From Nitrososphaerota archaeon (lineage in GTDB: Archaea; Thermoproteota; Nitrososphaeria; Nitrososphaerales; UBA183): a DNA stretch of 5,950 nucleotides. The notes below the pieces were generated by a model. It made no database searches and had not been told where the DNA came from. It worked only from the letters and a program-made list of their open reading frames with translations. Positions 1,117-5,950 of this stretch are shown piece after piece. Location of the stretch: assembly GCA_029785625.1 (NCBI GenBank), contig JAFLZI010000029.1:1-5950 (forward strand), in the 5' to 3' direction. The translations under genes and the position numbers were made by a program. The stretch's first letter is position 1. Each line of letters begins with the position of its first letter.

Positions 1117-1138
1117 TCTCGACAGCGTCCAAAACCCT

Positions 1139-1197
1139 CGGCGGTGGGGCTCGCCATAACCGCTCGCAAACCCTTGTGAGCCGATAGCTCCTACCAG
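1139..1197 (+). promoter_or_regulatory. Fluoride riboswitch (crcB motif RNA)
   Basis: The whole aptamer can be read. P1 is GGCG (1140-1143) with CGCC (1152-1155). The connecting segment ATAACCG is at 1156-1162. P3 is an uninterrupted 8-bp hairpin, GCTCGCAA (1162-1169) with TTGTGAGC (1174-1181), and an ACCC loop. The 3' strand is CGATAGCTCCTACC (1182-1195). The pseudoknot pairs GGGGCT (1146-1151) with AGCTCC (1186-1191), six pairs with one G-U. This matches the bacterial crcB-motif layout (GGCGATG..GCC-CGCC-NAAAC-G-hairpin-TGATGGCC..CTAC) element for element. The next gene is a fluoride channel. Fluoride-bound forms of this class normally switch expression on. Confidence 0.95.
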
Positions 1198-1214
1198 ACA
1201 AATCAACAGCGAGC

Positions 1215-1222
1215 GGGAGTGA
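1215..1222 (+). promoter_or_regulatory. Shine-Dalgarno of crcB, able to pair with the riboswitch
   Basis: GGGAGTGA lies 6 nt before the GTG start at 1229 and fits the 16S rRNA 3' end. GGGAGT (1215-1220) can also pair with GCTCCT (1187-1192): six pairs, two of them G-U, across a 22-nt loop. The pseudoknot strand 1186-1191 is the same segment, so SD pairing and the ligand-bound fold exclude each other. Confidence 0.65.
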
Positions 1223-1228
1223 GAGAGC

Positions 1229-1609
1229 GTGAAGTATGACCTGGTCTACCTGGCCGTTGGGGCGGTCCTCGGTGCCTACGTCAGGTACCAGATCACCGGC
1301 GAGGGGTTCTTCATCGGGAGCCTCCCAATATCCGTCCTACTGGTCAACATTGCAGGGAGCTTCATCCTGGGGGCGAGCTCGACGGCCGTCTCAGGCCTCG
1401 GCTTGGACGGTCGCTACACGATATTCATCGGGATAGGCTTCTGCGGCTCCATGACCACGATGTCCTCGTTCGCCTTCGAGTCCGTCAACCTCATCGGGGT
1501 CGGGGAACTTGCCACGGCCGGGGCGGACATCGTGCTGAACGTCGGTGGCTCGCTCGGGGCAATAATTTTAGGAAGGGCGCTGGCCACCGTAGTGTTCGGA
1601 CTTGCATAG
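1229..1609 (+). CDS. crcB: Fluoride channel CrcB/Fluc
   Basis: This 126-residue membrane protein has four hydrophobic segments, the normal size for one Fluc subunit. Family signatures are GAYVRY (residues 15-20), LVNIAGSFILG (38-48, containing the conserved pore Asn40) and GFCGSMTTMSSF (70-81). The last matches the GFCGGLTTFSTF segment, whose two Thr help bind the central sodium. Fluc proteins form antiparallel dual-topology dimers with two pores that export fluoride, and a single gene suffices. Oddly, the first of the two pore-lining 'Phe box' residues is Met78, while the second, Phe81, is kept. GTG at 1229 was chosen because GGAGTGA lies 6 nt upstream and the protein starts directly before the first helix. 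The gene sits behind a fluoride riboswitch, and a DUF190 gene starts 13 nt after its stop, so fluoride-induced expression as a unit is likely. Confidence 0.96.
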   Translation: MKYDLVYLAVGAVLGAYVRYQITGEGFFIGSLPISVLLVNIAGSFILGASSTAVSGLGLDGRYTIFIGIGFCGSMTTMSSFAFESVNLIGVGELATAGADIVLNVGGSLGAIILGRALATVVFGLA

Positions 1610-1622
1610 CCCTGGTGACGAC

Positions 1623-1946
1623 TTGGCGAAGCCTCCCTCCAAGAGGATGGTCAAGCTCACGGTGGTGGTCAAGGCCAAGGACGCCTTCAAGGGCAAGCCC
1701 CTTGTCGACGTCCTCATCTCGCTCCTCATGGAGGCCGGGGTCTCGGGTGCGACCGTCACGCACGCGGCCCGGGGATACGGCGCGAGGGGGATCGCGAGGG
1801 CGGACGTCCTGGGACTCTCGGTGAACCTCCCTACGATAGTCGAGACCGTGAGCGATGCGGACCGGATCTCGAAGGTCCTCACCGAGGTCAAGAAGATGGT
1901 CGGGACCAACGGGCTGATAACCACATCGGAGGTCGACGTCTACTGA
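1623..1946 (+). CDS. DUF190 family protein
   Basis: The 107-residue product matches the DUF190 family (PF02641), small alpha/beta proteins with a PII-like ferredoxin fold. The recognisable core is KLTVVVKAKDAFKGKPL (11-27), then LLMEAGVSGATVTHAARGYG (34-53), and the C-terminal segment GLITTSEVDVY. Family members are commonly encoded beside crcB; the biochemical role is not established, and regulation of or partnership with the channel is only inferred. I prefer the TTG at 1623, which has GGTGA at 1614-1618 and follows the crcB stop by 13 nt. A TTG at 1602 would overlap crcB by 8 nt, and an ATG at 1647 would leave AGAGG directly against the start codon. No promoter is seen between the genes, so co-transcription with crcB from the riboswitch promoter is likely. 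The 3' end overlaps the convergent minus-strand gene by 7 bp. Confidence 0.92.
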   Translation: MAKPPSKRMVKLTVVVKAKDAFKGKPLVDVLISLLMEAGVSGATVTHAARGYGARGIARADVLGLSVNLPTIVETVSDADRISKVLTEVKKMVGTNGLITTSEVDVY

Positions 1947-2818
1947 CCTCCGAACCTGTCTAGCGTGCCCATCGACCTGTCTGCCACCCTCTCCGCCTCC
2001 AACCTGGAGAGTGACTCAAGCACCCTCTCCACGGCGGGGCGGCGCGAGTAGCTCTCGTCCTCGAGCGAGTCCCCGGTCTCCTCGAAGCTCACGCCGTGCA
2101 GCTTTGCCAAGGCGCACTCCGCGTAGTACCTCGCCTGGCTCTCAGGGTCGGGCTTCATCAGCCGCGCCTCCGGAGATCTGAGCGCCTCTGAGAGGCTGTC
2201 GTAGAGGTTCGACTCAGGGGACCACGAGAACACGCATGTCCCCGACCTGCCACCCGCGACCAGCCTCGCTGGGACTGGGAGCCAGCCGCGCCAACTAGCC
2301 CCGGTGGGCTCGACCACCCTCCCGGCTTCCACCGCCTTGCGCCACGAGGAAACGGCCAGCTCGTCCTCCCGCTCTTGCGAGTCGAGGAAACTGGAGAGCT
2401 TCCCTGCGACCGTGTCTCCGGGGAGGTCAGGCAGCTCCTCGAGGAACGCTCGCCAGAGCGAGACCGGCCATCCGTCTCCGCTGCAGACGCTCCCCTTGCC
2501 TGTGCGGACGAGGTCTTCACTCTTCACCCAGTGGACGACGCAGGGTATGCCTCCTGAGGGCTTCTCCCCAGGCTCCAAGACTCTCACCTTCAGGGTTGGG
2601 GAGGAGAGGTTGCTGGTGAACCTGCGGTAGCGCTCCGACCAGCTCCCGAAGCAGCGCCTGAGCGCCCGACCAGACCCGCCGGTCATGACCCCAATCCGAG
2701 ACATGATGGGTCTGGGGAACTCGTCGCCCGGGCGAAGGATTCCCGCCCAGCTCATCCTTGCACCGTGCGCGACGATCGGCTCCCCGTCCGCGCGCCCAGA
2801 CAGGTCGGAGGCTGTCAT
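1940..2818 (-). CDS. Unrecognised 292-residue soluble protein
   Basis: I do not recognise this protein. The frame stays open upstream to beyond 3331, but that extension is Arg/Pro/Gln-rich and looks like an out-of-frame reading. The ATG at 2818 overlaps the stop of the preceding small ORF as ATGA, which is why I chose it. Third codon positions are strongly G/C near the C-terminus, as in the neighbouring genes, supporting real coding. The product has about nine Trp and five Cys, no transmembrane segment and no signal peptide. Its C-terminal third is charged and probably helical (AVERVLESLSRLEAERVADR). No catalytic motif or nucleotide-binding loop is visible. It could be translationally coupled to the small membrane ORF, or be the main domain of a protein whose hydrophobic leader is now in another frame. 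An alternative start is ATG at 2842. Confidence 0.62.
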   Translation of the reverse strand: MTASDLSGRADGEPIVAHGARMSWAGILRPGDEFPRPIMSRIGVMTGGSGRALRRCFGSWSERYRRFTSNLSSPTLKVRVLEPGEKPSGGIPCVVHWVKSEDLVRTGKGSVCSGDGWPVSLWRAFLEELPDLPGDTVAGKLSSFLDSQEREDELAVSSWRKAVEAGRVVEPTGASWRGWLPVPARLVAGGRSGTCVFSWSPESNLYDSLSEALRSPEARLMKPDPESQARYYAECALAKLHGVSFEETGDSLEDESYSRRPAVERVLESLSRLEAERVADRSMGTLDRFGGQ

Positions 2819-2958
2819 CCGTCCATCCCATCCCGGAACCATCCCGCCGCGGTCTCCTCGTTGGGGTTGCCCTGCTTCTCCGCGCTGACGATGCCTCTCT
2901 CGGCCAGCCCGAAGGCGGCCGCAAGGAGCAGCATCAGAAGGGCCTTGAACTTCTCCAA
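2815..2958 (-). CDS. Small 47-residue protein with an N-terminal hydrophobic segment
   Basis: A TTG start at 2958 gives MEKFKALLMLLLAAAFGLAE, then a polar tail ending in FRDGMDG and TGA (2815-2817). The positive N-terminus followed by about 13 hydrophobic residues fits a signal peptide or a single membrane anchor. There is no typical lipobox or Ala-X-Ala site, apart from a weak candidate near IVSAEK. The stop overlaps the ATG of the next gene (ATGA, 2818-2815), an arrangement typical of translational coupling. Only a weak G-rich stretch (GACGGGA) precedes the TTG, and an in-frame TGA about 12 nt upstream excludes a longer form. Its family is unknown. It might instead be the detached leader of the downstream protein after a frameshift. 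Confidence 0.5.
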   Translation of the reverse strand: MEKFKALLMLLLAAAFGLAERGIVSAEKQGNPNEETAAGWFRDGMDG

Positions 2959-3039
2959 CGTCCCGTCTCATACGCCCTTCGCCCGTCTCCGCATTTGTCC
3001 TTTTGGATTGCGCGCAGTATGTCCCTGAGGACAAGAATT

Positions 3040-3318
3040 TCACTCCCAGACCGGGCCATACCGCCGACGAATCTCGTGACCCCTGCCACGGACCCGCGAA
3101 GTTCCGAAGGGAAGGGTCCCGTTGTAGGCGTGGTTGCTGCCCGGGAACGTGTAGGTCGCGCTGTTGTTCACTATCACGGAGGTGACGCTCCCGTGGGTGA
3201 CCACCCCGGTGTCGTGCGAGGGGCCGCCCATGACCGATGGCACGAAGAGGGAGAACGCCAGCACGAGCAGGCCGCCCGCCAGCGATCGCTAGCGTCGAAG
3301 CGGTCCCCGGCGGGTCAT
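3040..3318 (-). pseudogene. Probable broken secreted or membrane protein gene with in-frame TAG
   Basis: From ATG at 3318 the frame reads MTRRGPLRR, then TAG (3289-3291), then RSLAGGLLVLAFSLFVPSVM, and continues to TGA at 3040. Ignoring the TAG, the arginine-rich start plus the hydrophobic run would be a typical signal peptide or anchor of an approximately 92-codon reading frame. The following segment, VTHGSVTSVIVNNSATYTFP and onward, is Thr/Ser/Asn-rich and looks like an extracytoplasmic beta-rich protein. The last 20 residues become Arg-rich and less convincing, suggesting a frameshift or decay near 3110. A functional start downstream of the TAG would have to be GTG at 3264, inside the hydrophobic run and without an evident SD. 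No known family is recognised. A sequencing error at 3289-3291, or a true nonsense mutation, would explain it. Confidence 0.4.
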
Positions 3319-3442
3319 GGTTCTGCCGCACCGACTCAGCTTCACGGCGTCGGCAGGCAAGGGCGCAAAAGGATCACTTCTCTGGAACGATATGGGAAAC
3401 CGTCAATTCGGGTAAAGCTCACCTAGCGAAAGGGTGGTTGAG
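3319..3442. other. Intergenic stretch, no gene seen
   Basis: Between the initiator tRNA and the broken gene I see no plausible ORF or structured RNA. A short stretch resembling the tRNA 3' end lies at 3424-3437 (minus strand). The minus strand has only two TTT runs (near 3430 and 3414) that could help terminate tRNA transcription. Confidence 0.5.
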
Positions 3443-3456
3443 TAGCGAGGGGTGGA

Positions 3457-3477
3457 GTTTCAGGGGAGTCATCCCCC
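3457..3477 (-). other. tRNA intron 4 (T-loop, 59/60), 21 nt
   Basis: The central helix TTCA (3483-3480) with TGAA (3462-3459) is fully paired. Bulge 1 is AA|G (3479-3477) and bulge 2 is AC|T (3458-3456). The inner hairpin is GGGGA/TCCCC with a TGAC loop. Splicing restores the 7-nt T-loop TTCAAAT. The outer helix is the T-stem GGTGG/CCACC, which becomes continuous only once intron 3 is removed. Confidence 0.94.
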
Positions 3478-3484
3478 TTTGAAC

Positions 3485-3506
3485 TTGCGGACGGGCTGCG
3501 CCCGTT
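3485..3506 (-). other. tRNA intron 3 (T-stem, 52/53), 22 nt
   Basis: The central helix GCGG (3512-3509) with CCGC (3490-3487) is fully paired. Bulge 1 is TG|A (3508-3506) and bulge 2 is AA|G (3486-3484). The inner hairpin is ACGGGC/GCCCGT with a GCA loop. The cuts predicted by the BHB rule coincide exactly with those needed to rebuild the T-stem GGTGG. The outer helix is weak (one A-U and one G-U). Confidence 0.93.
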
Positions 3507-3521
3507 CACCGCTCTGCGGGT

Positions 3522-3542
3522 GTCCAAGCCCATTTCTGGACT
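3522..3542 (-). other. tRNA intron 2 (canonical position 37/38), 21 nt
   Basis: The outer helix is the anticodon stem GCGGG/CCCGC. The central helix is CTCA (3548-3545) with TTGG (3527-3524), containing one C-U mismatch. Bulge 1 is TA|A (3544-3542) and bulge 2 is AC|A (3523-3521). The inner helix GTCCA/TGGGC is capped by a GAAA tetraloop. This is the standard archaeal intron site, one base 3' of the anticodon. Confidence 0.93.
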
Positions 3543-3561
3543 TATGAGCCCGCCGGGATAA

Positions 3562-3583
3562 CGACCAGGCACTTTTGGTGCCT
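3562..3583 (-). other. tRNA intron 1 (D-loop, after G19), 22 nt
   Basis: Central helix: GCCA (3589-3586) with TGGU-type partner TGGT (3567-3564), four pairs with one G-U. Bulge 1 is GG|A (3585-3583) and bulge 2 is CG|T (3563-3561). The inner hairpin is GGCAC/GTGCC with a CAAAA loop. The outer helix is weak, A14 with T3560 near the D-stem. Splicing leaves the D-loop AGCCAGGTTA, with G18G19 and A21 in place. Confidence 0.87.
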
Positions 3584-3626
3584 CCTGGCTTCCCCACCTC
3601 GCTGAGACGGAGACTGATTTCTGACC

Positions 3627-3640
3627 CTTATATCCTTCTC
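3627..3640 (-). promoter_or_regulatory. BRE/TATA promoter of the initiator tRNA
   Basis: Minus strand: GAGAAG (BRE-like purines, 3640-3635) followed by GATATAAG (3634-3627). The box centre lies about 27 nt from tRNA base 1 (3603), so transcription should start at or just before the mature 5' end. This supports an expressed gene and an independent promoter downstream of the HD gene. Confidence 0.8.
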
Positions 3641-4194: not shown

Positions 4195-4704
4195 TCACTT
4201 CGCGATGTCCTCTTCGAGCTGATTGATCTTCCACCGGAGGGCCTCCTTGAGCTCCGTGTTGTCGATCCTGTTGAGGGGCCGTTGGCAGGTGGGACACTTG
4301 AAGAAGGTCTCCATGGCCTCCTCGAATGTCCGGGTGACGCACGTCGGGGTCCCGCAGAAGTAGAACTCGCGGGTCTCCTCGTGCTCCAGGCGTTGCTTGA
4401 GCCTCACGAGGATCTTCTTCTTCTGCGTCTGGATGAACCCATCGGTCTGGTCGCGCTGCGCCTTCCACCTGTAGACGAACCAACCCCTCTTTGGGTCCCT
4501 TACCCTCACGCCGGAGATGAGGCTCCTCCCGAACAGGTCGTAAAGGGCCTTCCTCACCGTCTTTATCTTTAGCCCGGTGGCCGAGGCGATCTCTTCGTCC
4601 GTCGCGTTCTCGTTGTTGAGCAGCGCCCTGGCTACCCTGACGTAGTCCGGACCGCCTATTAGACCTGCGACCTTTACGAAAGTATCTTCGTACTCTATTT
4701 TCAC
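4195..4704 (-). CDS. tfe: Transcription initiation factor E, alpha subunit (TFE)
   Basis: The 169-residue size is normal for archaeal TFE-alpha. Residues 1-85 form the extended winged helix (VARALLNNENATDEEIASAT, then GLKIKTVRKALYDLF and a wing around GWFVYRW). A basic, probably helical linker (92-112) precedes the zinc ribbon: Cys117, Cys122, Cys137 and Cys140 around FYFCGTPTC and FEEAMETFFKCPTC. TFE helps TBP/TFB and RNA polymerase open the promoter. The first zinc knuckle is C-X4-C rather than the usual C-X2-C, but all four cysteines are kept. The start is GTG at 4704, overlapping the Trm56 stop as GTGA (4704-4701). This indicates translational coupling and a shared transcript with Trm56 and HflX. 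Confidence 0.97.
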   Translation of the reverse strand: MKIEYEDTFVKVAGLIGGPDYVRVARALLNNENATDEEIASATGLKIKTVRKALYDLFGRSLISGVRVRDPKRGWFVYRWKAQRDQTDGFIQTQKKKILVRLKQRLEHEETREFYFCGTPTCVTRTFEEAMETFFKCPTCQRPLNRIDNTELKEALRWKINQLEEDIAK

Positions 4705-5231
4705 GTTTTCTGTTCTACCTGCTTGCCTCTAGCCGAAGGGACTATCCTTAGCTTATAACCACTGAACACCTTCTTAAGCTCTTCTCCCCTCTGGATGTCG
4801 TGGATGGCGATCGCCAGGGCGGCGATCTCCGAGTGGGGCTGAGAGGTGACGGCCACGTTGTAATCGGCGAGCTGGTAGACCTCCCCCGGGACCTTCGGCC
4901 CGCCAACCGCGAGCAGGAAGCTCCCCTTCTCCCTCAGCTCCTCCACCCTGTCCTGGAGAGGGTCCCCGTACATGGTGAGGTGGACGATGGTCCTCCCTTC
5001 GCCCTTCGCCTCGCGGAAGACCTTTTTCCATGGGGCCTGGACGACCGGAAAGTCGCCTCCCCACGCCTTGTTCACCTCCCCGACCGTGTCCATGAGCCCG
5101 CTCTCCACCTCCTCGAGATAGACGCACTCCGCCCCGAGCGCCCTAGAGACGAGGCACAGGTGGGTCAGCGTGCGATAGTCCCTGACATACCTATGCCCCA
5201 CCCGCACCACCTTCAGGCTCTTCAGCCCCAA
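4701..5231 (-). CDS. trm56: tRNA (cytidine(56)-2'-O)-methyltransferase Trm56
   Basis: This SPOUT-class enzyme methylates the ribose of C56 in the tRNA T-loop using S-adenosylmethionine. The N-terminus VVRVGHRYVRDYRTLTH (8-24) is the family start signature. TIVHLTMYGDPL (81-92) and FLLAVGGPKVPGEVYQLADY (105-124), followed by NVAVTSQPHSEIAALAI, make up the knotted SAM-binding region. The 176-residue length is typical. The frame stays open upstream to 5411, but that part is a shadow of the HflX gene. I chose TTG at 5231, 2 nt after the HflX stop, with GGGAGGGTG at 5251-5243 upstream. The stop overlaps the TFE start (GTGA). The enzyme acts on mature-like T-loops, which is notable because the nearby initiator tRNA has introns in both its T-stem and its T-loop. 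Confidence 0.95.
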   Translation of the reverse strand: MGLKSLKVVRVGHRYVRDYRTLTHLCLVSRALGAECVYLEEVESGLMDTVGEVNKAWGGDFPVVQAPWKKVFREAKGEGRTIVHLTMYGDPLQDRVEELREKGSFLLAVGGPKVPGEVYQLADYNVAVTSQPHSEIAALAIAIHDIQRGEELKKVFSGYKLRIVPSARGKQVEQKT

Positions 5232-5233
5232 GC

Positions 5234-5950
5234 TCAGGCCGGCACCCTCCCTTCCATGCCCTCCTCCTCGGCGACCTCGGTGAGCTTGGCGTCGGCGACC
5301 CCCAAGAGCGAGTCCATCCCCTGACCGGTCTTCGAGGAGACCGCCACAGCTTCGATGGGCCCGAGCTCCCTCTTCCTCTCCTCGATCAGCTCGGCCGGGG
5401 CGAGGTCGCACTTGTTCAGGACGGCTATCGTCTTAGAGGGCTTGACCATGAGGTGGGAGAGAGCCTGGGCCGAGCTCTCGTAGCTCCTGATGAACTTCTC
5501 CGCCGGCTGGCTCGCGTCGAGGAGGAGGAAGACCACAGTAGCATAGGATATCTCCTCCAGCGTCGACTTGAACGACTCTATCAGGTACGCCGGGAGGTTG
5601 CTGATGAAGCCCACCGTGTCGGTGAGCAGGGTCTTCCTCTCTCCCACCATCACCGCCCGCGTGGTGGGAGCCAGGGTGGTGAAGACGCCGGCGTCGACGC
5701 TCTTCGTCTCCCCGGTGAGCTTGTTGAAGAGGCTCGTCTTCCCCGCGGCGGTGTACCCCGCGAGGGCGATGGTGGGGAACGCGAGCCTCCTCCTGTGTTC
5801 GCGGAATATCTCCCTCCTCTTTGCGACTTCCTCCACCTTCCTCCTGAGCGTGGCGACCCTGCTCTTCATCATCCTGGTGTAGACGTCCGCCTCGTACTTG
5901 CCGAGCCCGAAGAACCCTGGCTGCCCCCCCCTCCTGGCCATCTTGACGCT
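5234..5950 (-). CDS. hflX: HflX-family GTPase, C-terminal part (5' end outside window)
   Basis: 238 residues are visible; the N-terminal HflX domain lies beyond the right edge. Numbered from the in-frame Met at 5941, the glycine-rich linker GGQPGFFGLGKYEADVYTR is followed by a coiled-coil region (about 23-52). The G domain has G1 GYTAAGKTS (62-70), the G2 region TTLAPTTR (88-95), G3 DTVGF (108-112), G4 NKCD (176-179) and G5 SSK (202-204). DTVGFISNLPAYLIESFKST is a strong HflX signature. HflX binds the large ribosomal subunit and in bacteria splits stalled ribosomes; an equivalent role in archaea is inferred. It is the first visible gene of the operon, and its TGA (5234-5236) is 2 nt before the Trm56 start. 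Confidence 0.96.
   Translation of the reverse strand, partial: SVKMARRGGQPGFFGLGKYEADVYTRMMKSRVATLRRKVEEVAKRREIFREHRRRLAFPTIALAGYTAAGKTSLFNKLTGETKSVDAGVFTTLAPTTRAVMVGERKTLLTDTVGFISNLPAYLIESFKSTLEEISYATVVFLLLDASQPAEKFIRSYESSAQALSHLMVKPSKTIAVLNKCDLAPAELIEERKRELGPIEAVAVSSKTGQGMDSLLGVADAKLTEVAEEEGMEGRVPA

Follow-up and report, generated by a model that had tools for sequence, protein, structure and literature searches.

The window analysed here (the whole stretch of DNA, 5,950 nt) carries on its minus strand, from 3603 to 3443, a 161-nt gene that is very probably an initiator tRNA-Met gene in five exons, whose four inserts are predicted to be cut at BHB motifs by EndA and whose exons RtcB would likely join to give a standard 75-nt tRNA. 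A preliminary description of this locus had the coordinates 3443-3603, the insert lengths and the length of the product right; the strand, which it did not give, is the minus strand.

Structure of the gene and of its predicted product

The gene is made of exons of 20, 19, 15, 7 and 14 nt and of inserts of 22, 21, 22 and 21 nt, which lie, in order, in the D-loop, in the anticodon loop at 37/38, in the T-stem at 52/53 and in the T-loop at 59/60. Exon 1 (3584..3603, like all the parts on the minus strand) contains the 5' strands of the acceptor stem and the D-stem and the part of the D-loop up to G19, and the identical 20-mer is found in several sister genomes. The remaining D-arm, the 5' strand of the anticodon stem and the CAU anticodon are on exon 2 (3543..3561), which ends with position 37, while exon 3 (3507..3521) starts with A38 and continues with the 3' strand of the anticodon stem, the variable loop and T-stem positions 49-52. 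Since the cut in the anticodon loop is best placed at 37/38, these two exons measure 19 and 15 nt and not 20 and 14, a cut one base later giving the identical product. Exon 4 (3478..3484) is reduced to positions 53-59, GTTCAAA, and exon 5 (3443..3456) provides T60, the 3' strands of the T-stem and acceptor stem and A73, CCA not being encoded.

Initiator tRNA-Met is marked by a CAU anticodon, an A1-U72 pair and GGG:CCC in the anticodon stem, and the spliced 75-nt product has all of them. Its acceptor pairs (7/7) and T-stem pairs (5/5) are Watson-Crick, giving a normal cloverleaf, and we predict that it would be fully functional. Compared with the intronless 75-nt initiator genes of relatives, it is identical at 74 of 75 positions to those of L143 and L144, at 73 to those of L100, L102, L104 and L142, and at 71 (L109, L155), 70 (L139) and 64 (L165) to more divergent ones. 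The earlier proposal of four BHB-type introns leaving a flawless initiator tRNA holds up. Transcription would start from an upstream TATA-like box, ATATAA (3628..3633, minus strand), separated from the tRNA start by 24 nt. The stretch GAGAAGGATATAAG at this box is common to the orthologues in L061 and L062, and the other nine relatives compared differ there.

Two other kinds of interrupted gene were considered and rejected. The exons are contiguous, unpermuted and all within 161 nt, ruling out a split or permuted tRNA. Group I and group II introns have a ribozyme core of hundreds of bases; they are ruled out by the length of the inserts (21-22 nt), and Rfam reports no intron family in the window.

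It had been anticipated that tRNA scanners may overlook such a gene, and this is what we observed: ARAGORN reports no tRNA anywhere in the window, and the initiator gene escapes Rfam's tRNA model both in the window and in the whole genome, in which the model finds 22 other tRNAs.

BHB motifs at the four inserts

A BHB motif was taken as two 3-nt bulges around a 4-bp helix, with the cut after the second bulge base. Intron 1 (D-loop, 3562..3583, 22 nt) has the central helix GCCA:TGGT (4/4 pairs) and an inner helix of 5 bp; intron 2 (the canonical 37/38 site, 3522..3542, 21 nt) has CTCA:TTGG (3/4) and 5 bp; intron 3 (T-stem 52/53, 3485..3506, 22 nt) has GCGG:CCGC (4/4) and 6 bp; and intron 4 (T-loop 59/60, 3457..3477, 21 nt) has TTCA:TGAA (4/4) and 5 bp. 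The claim that a 4-bp helix flanks every insert thus holds for three of them, and does not for the one at 37/38, which is of a relaxed form with one C-T mismatch and one G-U. When the intron letters were shuffled 200,000 times, the exon strand of the helix being kept fixed, motifs as good were obtained 1, 107, 1 and 14 times for introns 1 to 4, respectively, indicating that the four BHB motifs exceed chance.

The 5' helix strands occupy separate exon stretches (precursor positions 15-18, 56-59, 92-95 and 121-124). As each motif uses a different stretch, in principle no order of intron removal is obligatory. EndA would make eight cleavages per molecule at these motifs, and four ligations, likely by RtcB, would follow.

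We also computed the folding of the precursor. At its energy minimum (-82.6 kcal/mol), the full-length precursor folds without the four central helices; imposing these together with the acceptor stem yields at best -67.9 kcal/mol, which is 14.7 kcal/mol higher. In part-spliced forms and 5' prefixes, helix probability stays at or below 0.15 except for the D motif, which reaches 0.44-0.70 once the T-loop intron, or the T-loop and 37/38 introns, are removed, and 0.40-0.76 in a prefix. Folded locally, the introns of the gene score 0.11 (D-loop), 0.0 (anticodon loop), 0.07 (T-stem) and 0.22 (T-loop), none of them reaching 0.5, a value attained by 46 of the 159 introns tested, own ones included (medians: D-loop 0.0, anticodon loop 0.03, T-stem 0.18, T-loop 0.07 and V-loop 0.98, the last from five introns). 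Computed folding therefore does not favour the BHB motifs, as is the case for most introns of the relatives; with only 46/159 introns reaching 0.5 it is a poor discriminator, yet it lends no support.

Together with the 3/4 helix of intron 2, this result could suggest that fewer than four of the introns are real and that at least one insert is retained in an enlarged functional tRNA. We consider this highly improbable. Initiator tRNAs are nearly constant in the sizes of the D-loop, anticodon loop, T-stem and T-loop, which are the parts that retained inserts would enlarge, and for each of the four sites there are relatives whose genes read straight through.

Copy number and splicing enzymes in the host genome

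The host belongs to the genus Gagatemarchaeum of the Nitrososphaerota, group I.1c. The neighbouring TFE gene has its named relatives in Nitrososphaerota, including many soil archaea, and the host likely dwells in soil. Genomes of the same genus include Candidatus Gagatemarchaeum stordalenia bog_1369 (L066) and AcS1-13 (L061), whose TFE is 98% identical. The genus and its family were described in PMC10640624, where table rows give predicted growth optima of 36-38 C for the described genomes of this soil lineage; the word 'intron' is absent from the main text of that paper.

A second intact initiator gene had been named as the observation that would speak against the proposed structure. None was found in the assembly, which is 88% complete and in 61 contigs, by searches with the 5'-exon pattern, the whole gene and the spliced product. 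The zero-mismatch match to the 5'-exon pattern is the initiator locus alone; 23 further sites have two or three mismatches, compared with 16 in the reversed control, and at seven of the 23 (L024-L030) the CTCATA anticodon is absent within 320 bases. The whole gene matches only itself, and the spliced product matches its own exons and two weak places, the tRNA L022 (E = 0.001) and one on C48 (E = 0.36). A second gene could lie in the unassembled part, and one interrupted inside the searched 5' exon could have been missed.

Read by eye, L022 (C51:7377-7488 of the same genome) resembles a tRNA-Val(UAC) gene and has AACGGGCGCA and then AGCCC, a sequence closely resembling intron 3 of the initiator gene. 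This likeness is possibly a trace of intron movement between tRNA genes, or else due to chance. A pattern for T-loop introns in other tRNAs gave 12 matches in the genome against 8 in the reversed control.

The incomplete assembly and the unusually large number of interruptions would be consistent with a decayed pseudogene, the functional initiator tRNA being encoded in an unassembled part of the genome. This seems very unlikely to us: the spliced product is flawless in the acceptor stem and T-stem and differs from intronless genes of relatives at as few as one position, the TATA-like box is common to two sisters, and in all seven same-genus genomes the 5'-exon pattern finds a single initiator match (an extra match in G001 does not read as a tRNA).

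By homology, the genome has EndA subunits of both catalytic and structural type, and RtcB. One predicted EndA subunit is on contig C32, and the one of catalytic type is cut between the ends of C42 and C60; its stretches with Tyr, His and Lys, which we take to be the catalytic residues, align to 3p1z_B. RtcB was identified with E = 2.7e-170.

Initiator gene introns among relatives

We then surveyed 121 genomes including the host's own, 98 of which matched the 5'-exon pattern. One match (G036, also L084) is truncated by the contig end, and the other 97 were read, 89 by script and 8 by eye. The script-read genomes have four introns in 3 cases, three in 23, two in 41, one in 16 and none in 6, and the eye-read ones have one or two introns apiece. 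Among the 23 genomes without a 5'-exon match, 8 were recovered through the anticodon arm (7 of family f2 and 1 of family f3), and 15, of which 11 are under 90% complete, were unmatched by either pattern. Four introns are therefore found in 4 of the 105 readable genomes (the host itself, G028, G031 and G047), more than four in none of them, and at least one in all 35 readable genomes of the host's family. Two close sister genomes have two introns each.

Six insertion sites are used across the relatives, in varying combinations. In the 89 script-read genomes an intron occupies the anticodon loop in 52, the D-loop in 47, the T-loop in 45, the T-stem in 30 and the V-loop in 5. These calls come from an intron caller that drops matches scoring under 30 and places D-loop cuts in relatives approximately: in L052 the automatic cut leads to an odd 74-nt product, and a cut shifted by eye restores AGCC:GGCT and the usual D-loop. 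Likewise, inspection by eye places the intron of L111/L179 (G106), called in the V-loop, in the T-stem; the site counts use this corrected assignment, and the 47-row tree described below keeps it as V. In f4, the initiator genes L149-L153 have a variable-loop intron, with the helix CCGC:GCGG (4/4), and none in the D-loop or T-stem.

The sixth site was observed by eye in the initiator genes of f2 and f3 (L219-L226), in which an acceptor-stem intron follows a first exon of four nucleotides, AGCG, and its 5' helix strand, GTAG, reaches into the leader. In G047 (f3), this intron is combined with introns at 37/38, in the T-stem and in the T-loop to make four. Acceptor-stem introns as such were already known (PMC12397907, in the part available). 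The exon GTTCAAA, put forward earlier as among the shortest tRNA exons, is indeed 7 nt long, but the first exon of the f2 and f3 genes is shorter. Double T-arm introns, which leave such a micro-exon, are present in at least 11 of 400 genomes of the order, the host's included, against none in the reversed control. This is a lower bound as the search pattern was exact, and the 400 genomes are a subset of a larger group; all four of the four-intron genomes are among the 11.

In the eleven relatives compared, the initiator gene lies downstream of TFE and on its strand, with differing intron sets. This conserved position, also that of the present gene, and the recurrence of four-intron genes with different letters in G028, G031 and G047 argue against an assembly artefact or chimera, an explanation that a draft assembly in 61 contigs might invite and that we find barely conceivable.

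Turnover of the introns

Within the genus, the intron sets differ from one genome to another. The present gene has D-loop, anticodon-loop, T-stem and T-loop introns, compared with D-loop and T-loop introns in G004, D-loop and anticodon-loop introns in G007, anticodon-loop, T-stem and T-loop introns in G005, T-stem and T-loop introns in G001, and anticodon-loop and T-loop introns in G002, G003 and G006. When the sites were mapped on a TFE tree of 30 members of the family, at least 4 changes were needed for the D-loop site, 7 for the anticodon loop, 11 for the T-stem and 8 for the T-loop; those forced by well-supported branches only are 3, 4, 5 and 4, respectively. These counts, like those from the larger tree below, are rough, TFE being short and many forks open. 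Shuffled labels did as well in 3, 70, 399 and 68 of 500 trials, respectively, so that T-stem occupancy is unclustered on this tree.

A larger TFE tree has 47 rows, namely the host and 46 of the 64 named loci (17 loci without the 5' exon in the stretch and the cut-off L084 were omitted). On this tree, L061 and L062 group with the host, and the four-intron rows L082 and L083 lie elsewhere; three changes are needed, two of them forced, the placement of L082 and L083 relative to each other not being fixed by the tree. As introns that look alike by eye fill the same sites in other combinations, having four introns is most likely a passing state of a gene that often gains and loses introns at a fixed set of sites. 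By eye, introns at one site look alike across the genus, which would favour losses.

The inner helices were compared among distinct genes, own included, leaving out introns shorter than 16 nt or with a central helix of fewer than 3/4 pairs. This filter dropped 10 of 29 T-stem, 2 of 35 D-loop and one V-loop call, some of which stem from misplaced automatic cuts. All four first inner pairs form in 18/19 T-stem, 28/43 T-loop, 5/5 V-loop, 8/33 D-loop and 10/29 anticodon-loop introns. The inner helices are kept with changing letters: pair 1 of the T-loop introns is paired in 40 of 43 cases, as GC in 22, TA in 9 and CG in 8.

Genomic neighbourhood

A fluoride riboswitch (Rfam E = 2e-9; window 1131-1606) is located directly upstream of a CrcB gene, which is followed by a DUF190/P-II-like gene. 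Between the latter and the tRNA (window 1940-3331), the longest frame has 463 codons on the minus strand and no Pfam match at E 0.001. The HflX-like, aTrm56, TFE and HD genes are on one strand. aTrm56 modifies C56 of the T-loop; its gene (window 4704-5411, minus strand) is near the initiator gene, in which C56 falls in the 7-nt exon.

Comparison with known archaeal tRNA genes

The maximum of introns in an archaeal tRNA is given as three in the available passages of PMC8450103 (2021, 'up to three'), PMC4033280 ('a maximum of three introns'), PMC3293823 ('as many as three') and PMC4390854 ('up to three introns'), and no archaeal tRNA with four was found in the literature searched, a partial coverage made up mostly of titles and the beginnings of abstracts. 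The preliminary description was thus in line with these papers in holding that four introns exceed the known number, but the gene is not a one-off, given the three other four-intron genomes among those readable.

Multi-intron tRNAs are said to be prominent in Thermoproteales, a group outside which the present gene falls; examples in the excerpts of PMC4390854 are P. calidifontis tRNA-Glu(UUC) and P. islandicum tRNA-Pro(UGG), with three introns each. As described in these sources, the Thermoproteales genes carry more than one short BHB intron, at canonical and at non-canonical positions, with removal in cis, as is predicted for the present gene too, whereas the present gene has four introns, is that of an initiator tRNA and belongs to a soil lineage. 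In Caldiarchaeum subterraneum, introns are likewise found at 37/38 and in the D-, V- and T-arms, several per gene, and the multi-intron tRNAs named in the accessible part of PMC3293823 are Leu, 'Glu[CUG]' and Thr, the initiator not being among them. Initiator tRNAs are permuted at 59/60 and 37/38 in Thermofilum pendens and split at 37/38 in Nanoarchaeum equitans, according to the part of PMC3218864 available. Those break points coincide with introns 4 and 2 of the present gene, whose exons, unlike theirs, are ordered and contiguous and predicted to be spliced in cis. The motif and the predicted machinery are the same as in known multi-intron archaeal tRNA genes, from which the present gene differs in its fourth intron, in being that of the initiator tRNA and in its soil lineage.

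Significance

Against the maximum of three in the papers checked, the intron number per archaeal tRNA gene would rise to four, and this in a tRNA on which protein synthesis depends. As ARAGORN and the Rfam tRNA model both miss the gene, tRNAs that appear to be 'missing' from such genomes may be hidden by introns. We can also envisage, as a doubtful extension, that Nitrososphaerales have an intron hot spot in their initiator tRNA, with six fixed sites (including the acceptor-stem one behind only four exon bases) that fill and empty within genera, and that in lineages like this one, with eight EndA cuts and four ligations per tRNA, the rate at which translation is initiated could be set by the capacity for splicing. 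With so many close relatives differing in their intron sets, it becomes possible to count how fast, and in which direction, tRNA introns are gained and lost.
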